Origin: an uncultured Desulfatitalea sp. | GTDB taxonomy: Bacteria > Desulfobacterota > Desulfobacteria > Desulfobacterales > Desulfosarcinaceae | NCBI GenBank assembly: GCA_937868765.1 | Contig: CALMNL010000004.1 | Location: 62,001-126,000 of the forward strand | Length of the DNA: 64,000 nucleotides | Reading direction: 5' to 3' | In this document: piece after piece, positions 7,201 to 30,477 of the stretch | Layout of the letters: each line of letters begins with the position of its first letter | How positions within the stretch are numbered: position 1 is the first letter of the stretch | Notes under the pieces: generated by a model | Seen by the model: the letters and a program-made list of their open reading frames with translations, nothing else | What the model was told of the DNA's origin: nothing | The model's database searches: none | Position numbers and translations under genes: made by a program

Positions 7201-10200
7201 ATGATCAAGTCCAAAGCGCTGGAAATCAACCTGGCCCGCACCCAGGTGGATGTGGCCATCGACCCTCGCTACGAATGCCTGCAAGCGGTGATGGACAGCT
7301 ATTACGGCCTGCTCGAAGGGCTCAATGGCTTTCTCAAGGAGGTCTCGCACCCTTACAAGAACTGGGCGTTCATCATCGCCGGCGCCCGGGGCTACGCCCT
7401 GGATTACTTTCATCTGATGCGGGCCCACCCCCGGGGTCTGGACGCCGCCGGGGAGCTCATCCAGATCTTTTTCCAGCCCCTGCTCGAGGATACGGCACCG
7501 ATGGTGCAGGTGGATGCAGCCGACAACCTGATCCTATTCCTGCAAAAAATCCTGCGCACGGCCGACGCCCACCTGGCCCGTTTCGTTCCGCTCGTCGAAG
7601 CCACCCTGGCCCGCATCCACGACTTGGCCGAGGGGCCGTTCGCCTTGTTCGTACGCAGTTTCTATCCCCTCAAACGGCTGGCCGAAGCCTGGATGGGCGC
7701 CCGCCCCGAGCAGACCACCGGGTTCGGCGCGCTGAACCATCTGCTGATCCGCGCCCTGGCGCACAATACGGCCTATTGGCTCACGGAGCGAGACCCCCGG
7801 CAGTGGTTCCTCGAAGAGGCCGAAGCCGCACCGTCCCGTGAGCTGGATACCATTTTCACGCCGGTGACCCACGCCACGCTCCAGGCCCAGCAGGAGCGTC
7901 TGAACCGATTGGGCGCGGCCAACGATCCGGCCGCCCGGGAGGTGCTCGATGCGCTGTTGCGCCTCTCGGACCACAACGACCTGGTGCAGATCTACCGCCA
8001 AATACCCCAGCTGCTTCTGGAAGCCGGCGGCGAAGAGGGCGGCCATCCCTGGAAGGTGCTGTTTCTCTTTCACAGCATGAACATCGGCGGCCTTGCGTTG
8101 ATCCACGAAGACACCCTGCGGGACATCAACCGCTCCCTGAACTGGCTCATCACCCACCAGAGCAGCCGCTATGTCAACAGCCTGATCCAGAAGATGTTCT
8201 CCATCCTGGCGGTCAGTGTGCAGAATTATCCGGCCACGGCCCTCTCGTGCGTGCTCAACATGGGCAAAGGGATTTTCCAGACCGATGACGGCGCCTTGAT
8301 GCAGACCTTCATCGACGCGGTCATCAACCTGGGCTTCCAGGCGCCCAACATCAAGGGCGTCGGCAACGACTGGCAGATCCAGGTCAACAGCGCTCATATC
8401 CAGAACATCCGCACCTGGCTGGAACTGGTGGAGCTGCGGCCCAAGCGCACCCACCGCCTGCTTTCCAACCTGATCATCCACATGGCCGTCAGCGGGGTCT
8501 TCATCCGCGACAACGACCTGTTCGGCCGGGACGTCACCCGGCTGCTCAACAGCAAAATCGCCCCGGTCTACAACCTGGTCAAACAGATGGCACGCCTCCT
8601 GCCGGTCTACTTCAACGACATCGGCGCCGAGGGCGAACTGCGCGACATCTCCACGCGCATCGACGAGATCTGCCATCGCCGCGACCCGCTGATCCATTTC
8701 CTGCGCAAGCAGAGCCACGTGGAAGGCAGCAACCGCATCCTCAACCTGATGATGGCGTCCCTGAAGTTCTGGACCACGGCGGACAAGTCCCACCTGGTGC
8801 CGTTTCTGCCCCCGGACATCTACGAACAGATCGCCGCGACCGGGCCTTACATCAACGGCGTCCACCAGGTCTCTCGCCGCCTGGCCGATTCGTCCGAGGC
8901 GCTGTCGGCCTTGATGCTGAGCCTGGAGGCCGATGCCCTGGGCGAGATGACCCGGAAGGTGCAGGATGTCACCGACACCGACCGCGAGCGGGTGGTGCTC
9001 TTCGCCGAGTTCTACAAGCAGCTCAATCTCAAGTACAACCTGGATTTTCAGAACCTGCGCCAGTACGTGCGCCAGCTGCCCGAAGATGCCTACCCCCACC
9101 TCGACCGCCTGCGTGCGGCCCTTTCGCAGAGCGATCTGAAGACCCAAATCAGCCAGCTGCTCGACTACCTGGAGCTGCTCAAGGTCGTGATCCTGTCGCC
9201 GGAATGTTACGAAAGCCAGGAGAATATCTACAAGAAGCGGCATTTCACGGTGGACATTCCCTCCATGTACGGCAGCTACCGTGAAGCCAAATTCGACGCC
9301 ATGGGGCTGACCCTGCGCATCGAGGCCCTGGTCAACACGCTTTTCGAAGAGTTGATCGACGGCCTGGATCTTTCGTTCATCACCAAGGCCACCTGCCACC
9401 AGATCCATGACCGGCTGCGGTTGCTGGACCGGGCCCTGAAAATCGACGGCCTGGCCTCGGCCGAGCTGGAGCGGGAGCTGGACCTGTTGAACCGTTCTCT
9501 GGAGATCCGCGGCTTCAGTTTCACCCAGTACCTGGATATCTTCAAAGGCTTCGCCCAGGCGGTCAAGAACGTGATCAACGACTATTTCAACAACGTGCAC
9601 GGCGAAGCCCTGACCCGCGTGCTCAACCGCCTGCCGGCGGAAAGCATCCTGGAAAAGTACTTTCCCAACGGCTACCGCCTGGACGACGACAAGGAGAAGA
9701 TCTGCCATCGCACCTCGGAAATTTTCTTTCGCGACCGTTTGGCCACTTCACTGGGCTTGCAACAGTTGGACCTGTTCCTGAGCCGCATCCTCAACACTTT
9801 GTTCCAGCAGTCCAACCAGCTGCCCCGGGAAAAACTGCGCCTGCTGCTCAACTACGACCCCGACCGGGTCCTGACCCCCCTGCACCGCGCCAACCCCAGG
9901 GCCGAGGGGATCATCTACCTGGGCAACAAGGGCCTCAACCTGGTCAAACTGCTGCGCATGGGGCTGCCGGTGCCGCCGGGCTTCATCATCACCACCGAGG
10001 TGTTCCGCTGCCGCGAGATCCTGGAAGCCTTTGCGCCGGCCAAGCACCATCTGGACGAGCAGATCCTGCACAACATCCGCGACCAGGAGCAGATCACCGG
10101 CAAGCGCTTCGGCGATCCGGCCAACCCGCTGCTCTTCTCGGTGCGCAGCGGCTCGTCCATCTCCCAGCCGGGCATGATGGACACCTTTCTGAACGTGGGC

Positions 10201-12671: not shown

Positions 12672-13271
12672 ATGCGCCTGACCCAAGCGGATATGCGCCG
12701 AACGCTGGCCGAATCGCTGAATGTCACCCCTGACCGCGCCGACGCCTGCATCCGGGCCATCTTCACGGCCCTGGCAGAGGCGCTGGCCGCCGGCCAGGAT
12801 GTGCGCCTGGCCGGCTTCGGCAAATTCTTCACGCGCAGCCGTCGCGCTTCGGCGGCCGTGCCGGGACGCAGCGTCGCCTTCAAGGGCTTCGACCGGTTGA
12901 CGCGACGCCTGGGCGATGCCGGGCAGACCATGCTCGACACGATCGCCCCGGCGGTGACGGCCGAACGCAGAAGCGCCGCGCGCGAGGCGATCTTCAAGGA
13001 CGGCACCGCCTTCGTGCGCATCAGCGGCATCCCGGTGTGCGAATTCCATCTCAAATCCATCTCGGCAGGCGGCGGCGCCTTCCTGGTGCCCAACGACCCC
13101 TTTATCCTGCGCAACATCCGCGTCGGTCTGGAAATCGATATCCGCTTGCGCCAGGAAAACGGCCAGGCCATGCAGCGGGCGCGCATCGTGCACATTACGC
13201 CGACCCGCACCGAAGAACTGGGCGAGTGCTTCATCCTGGGGGTACAGATTTTAACCCGGCTGCCGGTGTAG
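12672..13271 (+). CDS. HU/IHF-type DNA-binding domain fused to a PilZ-like domain
   Basis: A 199-residue protein with two domains. Residues 1-82 follow the HU/IHF fold: an N-terminal two-helix part, LAGFGKFFTR (47-55), a short arm with basic residues, and VAFKGFDRLTRRL (68-80). The arm is shorter and lacks the clear RNP tip. Residues 97-199 resemble PilZ, with an RxxxR pair (R100, R104) and SISAGG (129-134) in place of the usual (D/N)xSxxG. The c-di-GMP motif is therefore recognisable but relaxed. The natural reading is a nucleoid-type DNA binder that responds to cyclic di-GMP. It lies 30 nt after the GAPDH-like gene in the same operon. The PilZ call is less certain than the HU call. Confidence 0.7.
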   Translation: MRLTQADMRRTLAESLNVTPDRADACIRAIFTALAEALAAGQDVRLAGFGKFFTRSRRASAAVPGRSVAFKGFDRLTRRLGDAGQTMLDTIAPAVTAERRSAAREAIFKDGTAFVRISGIPVCEFHLKSISAGGGAFLVPNDPFILRNIRVGLEIDIRLRQENGQAMQRARIVHITPTRTEELGECFILGVQILTRLPV

Positions 13272-24345: not shown

Positions 24346-25080
24346 ATGCCGATGCCCAGCGCTGCCGCTCTCCCGGACGCCGCGATGCCGCCCTCGGAAG
24401 GAATCAACTCTCTGCTGGAGCAGATCCGTCGTGCGATGATCCGCATTGCCGTGGTCACCGCGCTCCTGGCCGTGGCCGGATACTACCTGGCCGAAAAGGT
24501 GCTGGTCTACCTGCAGCGCCTTTCGGGCGCCAAGCTGGTGGCTTATGGCCTTCCGGATACTTTTTTCTCGTTTCTCATGATCGCCCTGGCCCTGGGGTTC
24601 GCAGCGGCCATACCCTATACGCTTTACGCCCTGCTCTGCGCGGTGCAAAAGGTCCGCCCAAGCTTCACCCGCCGGAGCTTATGGAGTTTCTGGGCCGCCG
24701 CGGTGATCCTGTTCGCCCTGGGCATGTTCTTCTGCCTGGAGGTGACCCTGCCCTATGGCATCCGTTTTCTGCTCAGCTACGAAACCAGCGACATCGTGGC
24801 CCTGATATCGGTCAAAACGTTCGTGTCGTTCTGCTTCTGGGTGGTCTTCGGCTTCGGCCTGGTTTTCGAACTGCCCCTGGTCATGATGCTCCTGGCGCGG
24901 GTGGGCCTGGTGACACCCAAGCGAGTGGCCGGTTTCCGGCGCTACGCCCTTGTGATCATCATGATCGTGGCCGCCGTGGTGACCCCCACCCCCGATATCC
25001 TCAACATGATGCTGATGGCGGTGCCGCTCTATCTGCTCTTCGAAATCGGATTGATCGGAATGCGTTTTTGGAATAAATAA
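24346..25080 (+). CDS. divergent TatC-family protein
   Basis: A 244-residue protein with six hydrophobic segments. The C-terminal signature VVTPTPDILNMMLMAVPLYL and LYLLFEIGL match TatC (TP-PD-x-Q---A-P---LYE), and FELPLVMMLLARVGLVTPK matches the conserved third periplasmic-side region. The N-terminal HL-ELR-R signature is only partly kept (NSLLEQIRRAMIR), so the signal-peptide contact may differ. TatC is the twin-arginine receptor of the Tat translocase. No tatA or tatB is adjacent, which suggests an accessory paralogue. It follows the M16C gene by 7 nt with AAGGG before the ATG. Confidence 0.78.
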   Translation: MPMPSAAALPDAAMPPSEGINSLLEQIRRAMIRIAVVTALLAVAGYYLAEKVLVYLQRLSGAKLVAYGLPDTFFSFLMIALALGFAAAIPYTLYALLCAVQKVRPSFTRRSLWSFWAAAVILFALGMFFCLEVTLPYGIRFLLSYETSDIVALISVKTFVSFCFWVVFGFGLVFELPLVMMLLARVGLVTPKRVAGFRRYALVIIMIVAAVVTPTPDILNMMLMAVPLYLLFEIGLIGMRFWNK

Positions 25081-25110: not shown

Positions 25111-26367
25111 ATGCCCCCCGGTCTTGCAAAGATCATCGTCCTATCCGTATTCGTCGCCTGCTACGGCCTGGCCCTGAGCCGAAAAGTCAAGATCGCCTAT
25201 GCCTCTCTGGGCGCCGCCGCCGTCCTGATCATCACCGGCATTTTGTCCGTCTCCGATGCGGTGCTTAAAGCTGTCAAGTGGGATGTGCTCGGGATCTACT
25301 GGGGCTTCATGATGGTCTCGTTCGTCTTCATGCAGAGCCGCATGCCCGACCTGATCGCCAACCGCATCCTGGCGCGGGTCAAGACCGAGAAGTATGTCAT
25401 CTTTTATCTTTGCTTGCTCACCGCCTTCCTGTCGGCCTTCATGGAGAATGTGGGCGTGGTGTTGATGATGGCGCCGGTGGCGATCTCCGTCAGCCGCAAG
25501 ATGAACAGCGATCTTTTCGACTACCTCGTCCCCATCGCCATCAGTTCCAATGTGGTCACCACCTTCACCATGGTGGCCGATCCGCCCTCTATCATCCTGG
25601 CCATGGAGACCGGCATGAAGCCGCTGGACTTTTATCTCTTCCACGGCAGGATCGGGCTGGGCACCATCACCCTTATGGGCGTGATGGTCGCCATGGCCAC
25701 CCTGCTCGTTCAGTTCCGGGGCAGGCGAAATCCCGTGAACGTGGCTCCCGAAGCCATCGCCACCACCAAAGGCGCGACCTGGCTCTTCGTGCTGGGGGTC
25801 GCAGCCCTGGCCATCGGTCCGGAGTTCGGCGTGCGGCCGGGTATTGTCGGTTTCGGGGTGGGAGTCATCGCCCTGATCATGGGCCGCAGCTATCTCAAGG
25901 AGATGCTGGTGGAGTTCGACTGGAACTCCTTTTTCTTCATCATGGGCGTCTTCATGGTGATCTACAGTCTGAATGCGGCGGGCCTGCTCAAAGACTTCGC
26001 CGATATGGTGGTGCATGCCGGCATCGACAATCCCACCGCCATGCTCGCCTTTCTGGTGTGGATCTCGGTGGCACTCTCGTCCTTCATGGACAATGTGCCC
26101 TACACCATTCTGATGATCCCGGTGTGCCAGAATCTGGCGGCCGCCTTCGGCATCGAGGCCTGGTCCCTGCTCTACGGCATGCTCGTGGGCACCGGCATGG
26201 GCGGCAACATCACCCCCGTGGGGGCCACGGCCAACGTCTTCGCCTGCGGCATCCTGGAAAAGAATGGCGGCAAAGTCGAACTGGGCCGCTACCTGAAGGT
26301 GAGCATTCCCTTTTCGGTGGCCGCCGTGCTCACGTGCCACATCCTGATTCAACTGATCTGGCTGTAA
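25111..26367 (+). CDS. ArsB/NhaD-type ion transporter (IT superfamily)
   Basis: A 418-residue polytopic protein with about 11-12 transmembrane helices. Two repeat-related segments are visible, FLSAFMENVGVVLMMAPVAI and a matching ALSSFMDNVPYTILMIPV, each with the helix-breaking (E/D)N motif of ArsB/NhaD/CitM transporters. GTGMGGNITPVGATANV near the C-terminus is the second re-entrant loop. It could export or import an organic acid or exchange sodium for protons; arsenite is possible but no ars genes are near. AAAGGAG precedes the start. It is probably in the operon with the TatC-like gene, 30 nt upstream. Confidence 0.85.
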   Translation: MPPGLAKIIVLSVFVACYGLALSRKVKIAYASLGAAAVLIITGILSVSDAVLKAVKWDVLGIYWGFMMVSFVFMQSRMPDLIANRILARVKTEKYVIFYLCLLTAFLSAFMENVGVVLMMAPVAISVSRKMNSDLFDYLVPIAISSNVVTTFTMVADPPSIILAMETGMKPLDFYLFHGRIGLGTITLMGVMVAMATLLVQFRGRRNPVNVAPEAIATTKGATWLFVLGVAALAIGPEFGVRPGIVGFGVGVIALIMGRSYLKEMLVEFDWNSFFFIMGVFMVIYSLNAAGLLKDFADMVVHAGIDNPTAMLAFLVWISVALSSFMDNVPYTILMIPVCQNLAAAFGIEAWSLLYGMLVGTGMGGNITPVGATANVFACGILEKNGGKVELGRYLKVSIPFSVAAVLTCHILIQLIWL

Positions 26368-26448
26368 CCGATCGCACCCGATTCGAAGTACTGCCGCGAC
26401 CTGCCGAGCCACCGGCCGAGATGATCATGCGCACCGAAGCGGTGCCGA

Positions 26449-26580
26449 CTACTTTTTTTCTTTGCGCGTCACCTGACATGCATCCCGCATTCAGGTGGAT
26501 ACGCCCAGCCTGGGCAGGATCCAGGCCTGCAGCAAATACCACACGGCCAACACCGCGATGAAGATGAGAAGTTCTGTCAT
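26449..26580 (-). CDS. 43-residue membrane selenoprotein candidate (UGA decoded as Sec at position 30)
   Basis: ATG at 26580-26578, in-frame TGA at 26493-26491, final TAG at 26451-26449. Reading TGA as stop gives a 29-residue peptide with one transmembrane helix (about residues 3-20) ending LPRLGVST. Reading through adds Sec-MRDACQVTRKEKK, placing Sec30 four residues before Cys35 next to a basic tail. Three things support read-through: a SECIS-like hairpin at the distance found in fdhF (see 26464-26481), a good start (GAGG 5 nt upstream, coupled to the preceding gene 7 nt away), and another selenoprotein gene at 47892. One helix plus a cytosolic U-x4-C pair suggests a membrane-anchored redox or metal-binding peptide. 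I cannot name its family. Confidence 0.72.
26464..26481 (-). promoter_or_regulatory. SECIS-like hairpin after in-frame UGA
   Basis: In the transcript, GCAUGUC-AGGU-GACGCGC folds into a 7-position stem (one A-C mismatch, one G-U) closed by loop AGGU. Sixteen nucleotides separate the UGA (26493-26491) from the loop. In E. coli fdhF the loop AGGUCU follows the UGA by about 17 nt, and conserved loop G residues contact SelB. A competing fold pairing CACCUGA with UCAGGUG (26497-26491 and 26476-26470) would place the loop only 4 nt after the UGA and could modulate decoding. Confidence 0.65.
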
Positions 26581-26587
26581 GACGGCC

Positions 26588-27964
26588 TCAATTCTTTCCG
26601 CGCAGGGCGGCTGAATCTATTTCGTATTTCTTGATCTTGTAATGAATGGCCCGGCGGCTGATACCCAGCAGCTTGGCGGCCTCCTTCTGAACACCGCTGG
26701 TCTGCTTGAGGGCCCGGATAATGGCGCCGCGCTCGGTGTCTTCCAAAGAGAAGGAGTCGGATGCGTTTTCTTCGGTCAAGGCCATGGCGGGCAGACCGGA
26801 AAGATGCATGTCTTCGGGCCGCAGGAGATTGCCATGGCACAGGACGATGCCGGCCTCGATGGCATTCTTCAATTCGCGGACATTGCCCGGCCAGGGATAG
26901 GCACGCAGGTATTCGATGGTCTCCTGGGGCAATTTGACCGGCCGGGTCCCATTCTGACGCGCGTAGGACTGTACGAAGAGCTGGGCCAGGACGGGGATGT
27001 CCTCCTTGCGGTCGCGCAGCCGCGGGACGCTGAGGGTCACCACGCGCAATCGGTAGTAGAGATCTTCACGGAAACGGCCGTTTTTGATCTCCTCCACCAG
27101 ATCGGAATTGGTGGCCGCCAGCACCCGGCAATCCACGGAATTTTCCTTGAGATCGCCGATGCGGCGGATCTTGCGGTCCTCCAGGAAGCGCAGCAGTCGC
27201 ACCTGCATCTCCATGGAGATATTGCCGATTTCATCCAGAAACAAGGTGCCTTTGTCGGCCGTGTCGATCAGCCCGCGCTTGTCGTTGACGGCATGGGTGA
27301 AGGCGCCGCGCACATGGCCGAACAACTCGCTCTCGAGCAAACCGGCCGGCGTGCTGCCGCAGTCGACCACCACGAAGGGCTGTTTGACCCTTGGGCTCAA
27401 ACGATGGAGCAAGCGGGCGATGCGCTCCTTGCCTACCCCGCTCTCGCCCAGGATGAGCACGTTGACGTCGCTCTGGGCCACCTTGCGCACCAGCCCGTAT
27501 AGCTCTTTCATCTTCGGGCTGGCGGCGTTTTCCATGTCGGCCAGCATGGCATCGTCATCGTTGACCACCGGCGCGAAGCGCGGGTTCTCCTCCAGCACCT
27601 TGCGCAACTTGAAAACCAATTCCCGCCCGTCGAATGGTTTGGCCAGGTAATCCACTGCCCCGGCCTTCACGGCCTTGACGGCATCGGGGATGGAGCCGTA
27701 GGCGGTGAGGAAGATGATCGGCAACCCGGGGTGCAGCGCCCGGGCTTTGGTCATCACCTCCATGCCGCTCATGCCCGGCATCTTCATGTCCGATATCATC
27801 AGGTCGATCTTGCTGTCCTTGAGGATGCGCAAGGCTTCCTGCCCGTTTTCGGCCTTGTATATGTTGAAACCGGAGCTCTGCAGGCGTGCCTCGAGCACTT
27901 GCAGCACATTGGGATCATCGTCCACGATCAGGATCGAACTATTTTCTGCCACTGGGTTTGTCAT
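26588..27964 (-). CDS. sigma54-dependent response regulator, GlrR/QseF-like
   Basis: A 458-residue NtrC-family regulator. The receiver domain (10-125) has the phospho-acceptor Asp59 in MISDMKMPG and the switch KPFD. The AAA+ domain (about 150-380) has Walker A GESGVGKE (173-180) and Walker B GTLFLDEIG. The C-terminal helix-turn-helix is Fis-like (KEAAKLLGISRRAIHYKIKK). The sigma54-contacting loop, normally GAFTGA, reads GAFTHA (220-225), with His224 replacing Gly. Gene order kinase-lipoprotein-regulator matches glrK-qseG-glrR of enterobacteria, which responds to envelope stress. The gene ends 7 nt before the selenoprotein candidate. Confidence 0.92.
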   Translation of the reverse strand: MTNPVAENSSILIVDDDPNVLQVLEARLQSSGFNIYKAENGQEALRILKDSKIDLMISDMKMPGMSGMEVMTKARALHPGLPIIFLTAYGSIPDAVKAVKAGAVDYLAKPFDGRELVFKLRKVLEENPRFAPVVNDDDAMLADMENAASPKMKELYGLVRKVAQSDVNVLILGESGVGKERIARLLHRLSPRVKQPFVVVDCGSTPAGLLESELFGHVRGAFTHAVNDKRGLIDTADKGTLFLDEIGNISMEMQVRLLRFLEDRKIRRIGDLKENSVDCRVLAATNSDLVEEIKNGRFREDLYYRLRVVTLSVPRLRDRKEDIPVLAQLFVQSYARQNGTRPVKLPQETIEYLRAYPWPGNVRELKNAIEAGIVLCHGNLLRPEDMHLSGLPAMALTEENASDSFSLEDTERGAIIRALKQTSGVQKEAAKLLGISRRAIHYKIKKYEIDSAALRGKN

Positions 27965-28070: not shown

Positions 28071-28766
28071 TCACTCGGATGGAATCGCGTTTTTCTTCTT
28101 CTGGATCTTCTGATCGATGGTTTCGAAGGCCTTGATTTGCGCATTAAGCCTTTCAATCTCTTTTTCGAGCGATTTTATTTTCTTATCCCGAGCATCCAAG
28201 GTTTCTTCGGCTGCGGCGAGCTGGCTTTTAAGCCGCTGCAGTTCCTGGTTGGCCCGCACCACGAGCCATTGCGGAACGGAGGGCGCTGCTTTGCTGGCTT
28301 CAAGGTTTTCCTTATCCAAAGGAATATTGGAAAAAAGCATCTTTTCAGACAAAAGCGGCGCCAAGAGCGCAGGATCTTCATACTCCGGTTTTTTCTTGGG
28401 AGCGCTCTCCACCCAGGTATTCCACAGGGCGATGGCGTCCTGATACGCCTGGGGCGTATTGGCTTGCATCAACCGGGTGCAGGCCAGCCCGTACAGGGCC
28501 ATGCGCGCCATGACCGGATTGGCCGTCTGCTCCCGGAGAGCGATGAACTTCTGTGCCGATTGATCGTAGGCTTTGGCTTTATAATCAGTTACGGCCTCGC
28601 CATAGCGATTGGCCTCCCCAGGCGCCAAGCCCGGCTCCATGGAGGTGGGGCCACCCAAGGCACGCAGGTTGCATCCGGCGGCGGTCATCACCCCCACGCA
28701 CAGCAGCACCCATGCAAGGCAGCGCCGGGTCGATTTCAATTGCACGATTCTCCTGGTCCTTTTCAT
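28071..28766 (-). CDS. QseG-like outer-membrane lipoprotein with C-terminal coiled coil
   Basis: A 231-residue protein. A basic N-terminus and hydrophobic stretch end in a lipobox (MTAAGC), so it is probably lipidated and secreted. The middle (about 50-150) is a helical, TPR-like region (YDQSAQKFIALREQ ... MALYGLACTRLMQ). The last third is a strong coiled coil (AEETLDARDKKIKSLEKEIE). Its place between a sensor kinase and a sigma54 regulator equals that of QseG, which activates the GlrK kinase from the outer membrane; sequence similarity to QseG is only general. The start is the ATG at 28766; a TTG three codons upstream is less likely. Confidence 0.72.
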   Translation of the reverse strand: MKRTRRIVQLKSTRRCLAWVLLCVGVMTAAGCNLRALGGPTSMEPGLAPGEANRYGEAVTDYKAKAYDQSAQKFIALREQTANPVMARMALYGLACTRLMQANTPQAYQDAIALWNTWVESAPKKKPEYEDPALLAPLLSEKMLFSNIPLDKENLEASKAAPSVPQWLVVRANQELQRLKSQLAAAEETLDARDKKIKSLEKEIERLNAQIKAFETIDQKIQKKKNAIPSE

Positions 28767-28883
28767 TGTCGGCAACGGCTTTTCAGGTTATCCAGATTGC
28801 GAGCGCCATCCCAGGTAAAATTTTGCGAATTAAAATTCAATAGGATACGCATATGCCCAAACGATTCCGGACGCGCCCCCCTT

Positions 28884-28992: not shown

Positions 28993-30477
28993 TCAACGGA
29001 ATTTTCTTTTGCCGGAACGGCCGTTGGGCAGGACAGTGGGCAAGGTAAAACTGAAAGTGGTGCCTTTGCCCACCTGGCTTTCAACCCAGATCGTACCGCC
29101 GTGGGCCTCGACGATGTTTTTGGTGATGCTCAATCCCAAACCAACCCCATCCAGATGTTCTCGCACCTGGGCCCCCCGGTAAAATTTGTTGAACAGCTTG
29201 TCCAGGTCCTCTTCGAGGATTCCGGGGCCGGTATCCACCACGCTGAATGTCAGCCGGTTCCGTTTGTCCAAGGTTCCCACCCGGACCCAGATTCTGGCCT
29301 GAGGATCTGAGAACTTGACGGCGTTTCCGATCAGATTGAGGAAAACCTGTCGCAGATACTGGGCATCGCCCAACACATCCGGTGTTTCCGGCTGGATCTC
29401 GGAGGCGATGGCCACCTGCTTGGCCTCGGCTGTGGGACGCAAGCTGGCGATGCAGGCGGCTACCAGGGAATAGGTATCCACCGGTTGATGCTGTAATTTC
29501 AAGGCGCCCGGCTCCAGACGGGAAGCCTGCATGAGATGATTGAGCAGGTCGCAGATCCGGCCGATTTCGGTACCGGCGATTTCCAGAAATTTGTGCTGCC
29601 GCTGGTTGATCGGCCCCATGACTTCCTCTTCGATCATGTTCACCGATTCGCGGATGGAGGTCAGCGGCGTACGTATCTCATGGCTGAGCATGGAGATGAA
29701 ATCCGAGCGCATCTGCTCCTCGTGCTTGAGTCGGGCCGCCATCTCGTTGAACGCCGTGGCCAGTTCTCCCAGTTCGTCTTTGGCATGAATCTTGAGAGGT
29801 TCGCTCTGCCGGTCTTTGGATATGGAGCGAATGCCGCGCATCAGCTCCTTGAGCGGCCGGATGATGGAGTAGGCCAGAAAGACGACCCCCATCAACCCCA
29901 CCAGGCTGGAGACGCCCAATCCGATCAACGCGTTGTGCACCGACTGGATGCCCAGGCGGTTGATTTCGCGGGTGGCCTTCTCCACCTCGGATTGGTTCTG
30001 AGAACGGGCCTGGGTGATCTTGGCGATCCAATCGTTGATCACCATTTCGGGGATCCAGATCATCTGGGGAGGATCGGGCTGGCCATTGCCGCCCTCGCCC
30101 GCTGTCGGGGCCGCGTATTTCTGGTACTCGTCGTATACCTCCTGCCAATTGGGCGAGAGCGACTCGCCCTGCTCGCCCAGGGCCAACACCTTTAGCAGGC
30201 CGGCCTCGAACTCGGCGCGGGCCTCGGCAAAAAAATTGAGGTAATCCTCTTTTTCGAGCAGATGGTACTTTTTTTCGTTCTCCTCCATGCTGATCAGGTT
30301 TTCCAAAATTCGCTTGGAAGTGTCCGAAATGGCATAGTTGCGACTGACGGTACGCTCGGAAATGTGCACCACCTGCTGAAAATTCATATACAGCATCAGG
30401 ATGGTGCCATAGAAAATGGCCACCACCATGAAGAACCAAATCAATAATTTTCCGGTGATTCCGTATCTTGGATCCAT
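28993..30477 (-). CDS. membrane sensor histidine kinase, GlrK-like
   Basis: A 494-residue kinase. The first transmembrane helix spans about 10-31, a helical periplasmic domain spans 32-183, and a second helix spans 184-204. A HAMP domain follows (205-255), then the HisKA domain with phospho-acceptor His266 (MLSHEIRTPLTS). The ATPase domain shows LIGNAVKFSD (N box), VVDTGPGI (G1), FNKFYRG (F box) and GVGLGLSI (G2). The helical sensor domain suits contact with a lipoprotein, as GlrK with QseG. It is the first gene of a kinase-lipoprotein-regulator-selenoprotein run on the minus strand. Confidence 0.92.
   Translation of the reverse strand: MDPRYGITGKLLIWFFMVVAIFYGTILMLYMNFQQVVHISERTVSRNYAISDTSKRILENLISMEENEKKYHLLEKEDYLNFFAEARAEFEAGLLKVLALGEQGESLSPNWQEVYDEYQKYAAPTAGEGGNGQPDPPQMIWIPEMVINDWIAKITQARSQNQSEVEKATREINRLGIQSVHNALIGLGVSSLVGLMGVVFLAYSIIRPLKELMRGIRSISKDRQSEPLKIHAKDELGELATAFNEMAARLKHEEQMRSDFISMLSHEIRTPLTSIRESVNMIEEEVMGPINQRQHKFLEIAGTEIGRICDLLNHLMQASRLEPGALKLQHQPVDTYSLVAACIASLRPTAEAKQVAIASEIQPETPDVLGDAQYLRQVFLNLIGNAVKFSDPQARIWVRVGTLDKRNRLTFSVVDTGPGILEEDLDKLFNKFYRGAQVREHLDGVGLGLSITKNIVEAHGGTIWVESQVGKGTTFSFTLPTVLPNGRSGKRKFR

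Follow-up and report, generated by a model that had tools for sequence, protein, structure and literature searches.

The minus strand of the window, by which we mean the whole stretch of 64,000 nucleotides analysed here, almost certainly carries the gene of a 43-residue selenoprotein (26449..26580), in which SelB and tRNA-Sec insert selenocysteine (Sec) at UGA codon 30 with the aid of a hairpin lying just after it. The protein family appears in no catalogue that we searched. The open reading frame (ORF) runs from an ATG at 26580-26578 through an in-frame UGA at 26493-26491 to a TAG at 26451-26449 and encodes MTELLIFIAVLAVWYLLQAWILPRLGVST-U-MRDACQVTRKEKK. A hydrophobic stretch at residues 4-22 (26515..26571) is presumed from its sequence to be a membrane helix; the UGA (Sec30, 26491..26493) is followed by a U-x4-C motif, whose Cys is Cys35 (26476..26478), and by a basic tail. 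The first-pass annotation had described this motif and tail without stating a strand; both are present in the ORF, which is real and, like all of these features, lies on the minus strand.

Reading through stops, a translated search recovered the protein from 27 of the 30 genomes of the window's taxonomic family, and all 27 copies have a single TGA, at an identical codon position; of the remaining genomes, G003 gave a chance-level match and G014 and G020 gave none. Because the TGA-containing ORF is conserved in this way, the observation stands above chance, and a chance ORF is ruled out.

Gene arrangement in the window

Three minus-strand genes precede the selenoprotein gene: a sensor histidine kinase (28993..30477, from the ORF list and a family scan), a putative lipoprotein in the same gene run (28071..28775, so named from its sequence appearance, with no NCBIfam match) and an NtrC/GlrR-type sigma54 response regulator (26588..27964), a context limited to the window's taxonomic family. 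The TGA stop of the regulator occupies 26590-26588, and the selenoprotein ATG lies 7 nt beyond it. The sequence GAGG, a likely ribosome-binding site on the minus strand (26586..26589), overlaps that stop and ends 5 nt before the ATG, and both this spacing and the position of the start are as first reported. From the other side, two plus-strand ORFs that we take to be TatC-like (24346-25080) and transporter-like (25111-26367) converge on the selenoprotein gene. A 423-residue minus-strand ORF (25141-26412), antisense to the transporter-like one, appears to be spurious.

Decoding of the UGA codon

Two hundred homologous loci, in successive sets of 27, 89, 14, 1, 21, 30 and 18, were read by codon. 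Homology extends through the UGA in these loci, and the Sec position holds UGA in 195, TGT in three and TGC in two, and never TAA or TAG. Four of the five Cys forms come from Planctomycetota (L212, L232, L234 and L237) and one from the acidobacterial set (L277). A stop codon would drift among the stop codons and would not become Cys with its flanks kept. The contrary reading, in which the UGA ends a 29-residue membrane peptide and the conservation downstream belongs to a second ORF or an RNA element, is scarcely credible. TGA does serve as a stop in the window's genome, where it ends the regulator, and ATG directly follows the UGA in 121 of 194 UGA loci. However, the other 73 have a different codon there (GGG, GCT, AGA and CAA, for example), which rules out stop and restart at ATG as a general reading, and both the five Cys codons and the tracking of the UGA form by SelB (see below) speak against termination.

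Substitution patterns in the 27 loci of the window's taxonomic family also bear on decoding. Codons before the UGA gave dS 1.71 and dN 0.26, and codons 1-8 after it gave dS 0.50, dN 0.10 and pN/pS 0.25. Over codons 1-13 after the UGA, pN/pS was 0.52, indicating that the tail end is less constrained; the value of 0.50 after the UGA in ten loci of one related genus reflects very low synonymous change. Past the UGA, purifying selection on the protein persists while synonymous change is held down, as an RNA element within coding sequence would do. Both marks of a selenoprotein, conserved coding on either side of an in-frame UGA (27 of 30 genomes, 195 of 200 loci, and selection after the UGA) and Cys homologues at the Sec position, were thus found.

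The U-x4-C spacing suggested at first sight is common but not universal. Four residues separate Sec or Cys from the next Cys in 165 of the 200 loci, five in 11, three in one and eight or more in 14; in the other nine no later Cys precedes the protein end, so the U-C pair is not a constant feature.

A hairpin after the UGA codon

A bSECIS element, as described in the accessible part of PMC13188914, is a hairpin located 16-37 nt downstream of the UGA, with a G as one of its first two loop bases. The window has a predicted hairpin of this type on the minus strand at 26463..26482, with the loop AGGU at 26471-26474, assigned from its fold and from the class A hairpins of 49 homologues. Its sequence, TGC-A-TGTC-(AGGT)-GACG-C-GCA, gives 7 bp with one A.C mismatch and 16 nt between UGA and loop, and the stretch folds at -7.2 kcal/mol. 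Taken alone, this copy is not above chance (z -0.97; z 0.19 against synonymous shuffles) and fails a perfect 6-bp stem test. Thus the AGGU-loop hairpin of the first-pass annotation is present at the distance claimed but is not significant on the window by itself; a bSECIS-like hairpin emerges at the level of the protein family. In the window (26463-26498, minus strand), the stretch around the UGA can also base-pair with that around the AGGU (UCCACCUGA with UCAGGUGA), which gives a competing minimum-energy fold. As a feature of the protein family this fold was rejected, since it forms in only 25 of the 79 loci that have AGGU-like loops.

Folding placed a loop G within the required range in 138 of 147 UGA loci, where synonymous shuffles gave an expectation of 80.4; the mean energy z was -1.30. 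A fold-free test, which required a perfect 6-bp stem, a loop of 3-6 nt and a G among the first two loop bases, was passed by 135 of 192 distinct loci, compared with 13-28 in synonymous-codon shuffles. A control window in the helix part gave stems in 59 of 192 loci, or in 60 of 193, which is close to the 37-54 of shuffles of that control. UGA form L242 was left out of the hairpin counts, and L167 and L210 are identical across their first 120 nt. As chosen by fold, the loop starts at 17 nt in 57 of 191 loci and at 22-24 nt in 77 of 191; AGGT, GGA and GGTC are the commonest loops.

The hairpin also shows compensatory pairs in the homologues, a kind of support that the first-pass annotation had asked for. 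In the group with a 3-nt loop at 24 nt (39 loci), each of six pairs forms in every locus and has changes on both sides, and pairing falls from 92% to 28-48% when one arm is slid; the group with a 4-nt loop at 17 nt (49 loci) is 86% paired, as against 24-63% slid. The paired percentages are biased upward because the groups were picked by their own fold. A third fold group of three loci was not used. With no choice by fold, a full in-register 6-bp stem was found among 158 U-x4-C loci in 41 for the 3-nt loop and 22 for the 4-nt loop, compared with 0-9 and 0-7, respectively, in slid-arm controls. Such a stem is missing from four of the five Cys forms, and in the fifth, L237, it lacks the loop G.

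Selenocysteine machinery

The window's genome (G000) contains SelB, a tRNA-Sec with anticodon tca, SelA (521 bits) and SelD (386 bits), so that selA, selB, selC and selD are all present. Its selD gene (G000:C6:34195-35121, L280) has one in-frame TGA; SelD is probably a selenoprotein itself, which makes it very likely that the genome decodes UGA as Sec at other sites as well.

The SelB-wing was found in 347 of the 395 genomes sampled from the window's phylum: in 162 of 169 with the small protein and in 185 of 226 without it (Fisher p 1.7e-5; the genomes are related). Of the seven positives without SelB, six have a tRNA-Sec of at least 74 bits, and G166, which is 82% complete, does not; ARAGORN was applied to five of seven strong tRNA-Sec loci. 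In Planctomycetota, no SelB match was found in three of the four Cys genomes (G632, G646 and G703; G456 has SelB), compared with one of the 18 UGA genomes (G473) (p 0.010). On contig 17 of G038, the tRNA-Sec (7234-7327) and the selenoprotein gene (12681-12812) lie ~5.4 kb apart.

The tiny membrane-anchored selenoprotein proposed in the first-pass annotation has therefore survived on each point on which that proposal had been staked: coding sequence is conserved beyond the TGA in relatives, homologues do not end at the TGA without a Cys counterpart, and the insertion genes are in the genome.

Distribution and relation to known families

The small protein is present in several bacterial phyla, often adjoining sulfur- and thiol-handling genes. 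A 13-member profile matched 169 of the 395 genomes sampled from the window's phylum (E 0.01), and 90 of these matches were read codon by codon. A 31-member profile matched 57 of 247 Acidobacteriota genomes (48 loci were read in that set, and G453 was read in the mixed-phyla set) and 23 of 246 Planctomycetota genomes, one of them falsely, leaving 22; it matched none of 398 Pseudomonadota genomes, a run without a positive control in that no genome was known to match. A mixed set of 42 genomes, drawn from many phyla, gave 17 matches at E 0.05: 14 with the motif, among them Zixibacteria/Zixiibacteriota, Thermoanaerobaculum, Terriglobia, Rokubacteriota and Thermoguttaceae, two by chance only, and one weak member (L225, E 0.045), which is within the 200 loci and outside the neighbour counts. 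Four loci without the motif (L223, L224, L226 and L248) and three with E 0.09-0.52 (L029-L031) were excluded before counting.

Scans of Pfam and NCBIfam gave no match for the window protein and no credible match for 31 members, the best hits (E 0.004) being scattered over unrelated families, and no solved relative was found (best E 0.58, chance level). None of the 119 selenoprotein families and subfamilies in Table 1 of PMC13188914 fits, some rows being judged by their names and by family scans. No earlier description was found in the literature searched, which barely covered subscription journals and preprints, so that an earlier mention is possible.

CydP-type small respiratory accessory proteins resemble the protein in size and in having a single helix. 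One of the 31 members matches small_CydP at chance level (E 0.015), with no significant match, and we know of no Sec or conserved tail in CydP-type proteins. Likewise, the protein has no rhodanese domain and no match to the YgaP-like TM, even though YgaP-like and sulfide/persulfide operons (beta-lactamase/rhodanese, SQR and TauE) adjoin its gene, chiefly in Acidobacteriota and Planctomycetota. With no domain match, 43 residues and one hydrophobic helix, it does not show the thioredoxin-like fold that, according to the accessible part of PMC13188914, most characterised selenoproteins have. It does share with the bacterial selenoproteins catalogued there the in-frame UGA, Cys homologues, a loop-G hairpin at the described distance and the Sec machinery, but differs in being a one-helix peptide with rare Cys forms (5 of 200). 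The hypothetical selenoprotein families of the 2008 GOS survey are unlike it in this respect, with 125-312 Cys homologues in the accessible part of that report (PMC2398784).

Genomic neighbourhood

Flanks of 1.5 to 3 kb per side, less at contig ends, were searched by BLAST with representative neighbour proteins at 199 loci, with the flanks of the regulator at 79 loci as background. Matches were found to FmdB at 35 loci, YgaP-like TM at 23, thioredoxin at 19, DUF302 at 11, beta-lactamase/rhodanese at 10 (the query is a fusion, and some matches may cover one domain only), ArsR at 10, TauE at six, SufS at five, CcdA-like at five and SQR-like at two. In the background each of these families was at zero except beta-lactamase/rhodanese, at two, and the regulator was in all 79 by design. 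Because the families were chosen for their frequency, the loci share ancestry and regulator flanks serve as the background, the counts are leads and not tests. Representatives of thioredoxin, YgaP-like TM, TauE, DUF302, ArsR and Lactamase_B plus Rhodanese were confirmed in Pfam and that of SufS in NCBIfam; the CcdA-like protein has sub-cut-off matches only. The FmdB proteins are presumed to be such from their sequence.

FmdB-like zinc-ribbon genes are the commonest neighbour over several groups (in L250, for example, from +169 nt), and the 30 of the 35 that could be placed by motif all lie on the strand of the selenoprotein gene. FmdB proteins are neighbours and not relatives, with no sequence similarity seen. 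According to the accessible part of a 2008 paper (PMC2398784), FmdB also exists as a selenoprotein.

The selenoprotein could use its U/C tail to bind or move a metal or metalloid (zinc, copper, arsenic or mercury) and not sulfane sulfur or electrons, a reading we consider unlikely. The FmdB zinc ribbons (35 of 199 loci), the ArsR regulators (10 of 199) and a cluster in seven loci that we take to be RND-type efflux genes would suit it. However, the tail usually offers only one later Cys, and none in nine of 200 loci; persulfide and thioredoxin genes are equally prominent; and some ArsR proteins are persulfide sensors.

Thiol- and sulfur-handling neighbours, with FmdB and ArsR uncounted, were found at 29 of 48 acidobacterial, 7 of 21 planctomycete and 5 of 14 mixed loci; in the window's phylum they were found at 1 of 27 loci of its own taxonomic family and at 10 of the 89 others. 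SufS, YgaP-like TM, thioredoxin and FmdB all adjoin the gene in five acidobacterial loci, which include two near-identical pairs. In L300 and L301, which extend the stretches read for Cys forms L232 and L234, the gene lies 10 nt and -4 nt after a beta-lactamase/rhodanese gene, and downstream in both is an SQR-like flavoprotein, for which the model of the type III SQR selenoprotein gives 259 bits against a cut-off of 525. Upstream of Cys form L277, at ~400 nt, is a flavin disulfide reductase/rhodanese fusion.

In some lineages the upstream ORFs are what we take to be ferredoxin-type subunits (6 loci), NrfD-like (5) and cytochrome-b-like (4) proteins, candidate assignments that would fit a small accessory subunit of quinone-linked respiratory complexes. 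Since such genes occur in few lineages and are absent from most other contexts read, we think this role for the selenoprotein improbable, more so than metal binding.

No constant operon partner was found among the loci. The role in a kinase-lipoprotein-regulator operon suggested by the first-pass annotation is not supported as a general statement: the regulator matched at 23 of 27 loci of the window's taxonomic family, at 12 of the 89 from elsewhere in its phylum and at none of 83 mixed, planctomycete and acidobacterial loci, and a GlrKR-like regulator thus does not stand beside the gene throughout the protein family.

An ECF sigma gene matched at 21 of 27 loci of the window's taxonomic family, where it follows the selenoprotein gene, and at 7 of 172 other loci. 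In three loci (L012, L013 and L023), the earliest start open to the sigma gene, at +127 nt, comes before the selenoprotein ORF has ended (stop at +165), and Sec read-through could consequently affect sigma translation. The gene after the ECF sigma gene in L023 resembles anti-sigma RsrA below the cut-off (28.5 versus 62.5 bits). It is very unlikely that in this taxonomic family the UGA serves mainly as a selenium-dependent switch coupling translation to the overlapping sigma gene, for all the frequency of that gene there and its early start in the three loci: the window locus (L002) has no adjoining ECF ORF, the association is rare outside the taxonomic family, and the protein itself is conserved where no ECF ORF is present.

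Proposed mechanism

Based on the sequence features and the neighbouring genes, we propose a plausible mechanism for the selenoprotein. Lys and Arg residues average 0.43 in the first four residues versus 5.65 on the C side (198 loci), which, by the positive-inside rule, places the Sec/Cys tail in the cytoplasm. The single helix would anchor the protein in the inner membrane, with this tail on the cytoplasmic face. There, Sec30 and Cys35 may form a selenol/thiol pair, a selenenylsulfide when oxidised, which could link thioredoxin to rhodanese- or YgaP-like sulfur carriers near the membrane by passing electrons or sulfane sulfur between them. Computation shows the exchange of UGA and Cys, the conservation beyond the UGA, the hairpins, the Sec machinery and the neighbouring genes; we infer the topology, the redox pair, the partners and the substrate of this membrane-anchored relay between thioredoxin and sulfane-sulfur carriers, and we rate the mechanism as plausible and just short of probable. 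As a whole, the best explanation, in which the selenoprotein identity is joined to the relay, is one towards which we lean slightly. The proposed function is weakest for the window's own lineage, because sulfur genes rarely adjoin the gene there.

Significance

If true, these results would add a common selenoprotein: 169 of the 395 genomes sampled in the window's phylum have a match, as do 57 of 247 from Acidobacteriota. Ordinary gene callers would truncate the protein to 29 residues or omit it. The family also points to a blind spot, in that homology-based searches for selenoproteins depend on Cys homologues, and here Cys forms make up 5 of 200 loci; by its authors' own statement, in the accessible part of their paper, deep-Sep may miss selenoproteins that have no Cys homologues (PMC12013277). 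More tentatively still than the relay itself, we suggest that a widespread family has been missed as a 43-residue membrane microprotein with few Cys homologues, and that its Sec may carry sulfane sulfur or electrons at the face of the membrane and in this way connect thioredoxin, in several phyla, with the handling of sulfide and persulfide. Why selenium is spent on a one-helix protein, adjoining sulfur genes in many lineages, would thereby become a testable question.
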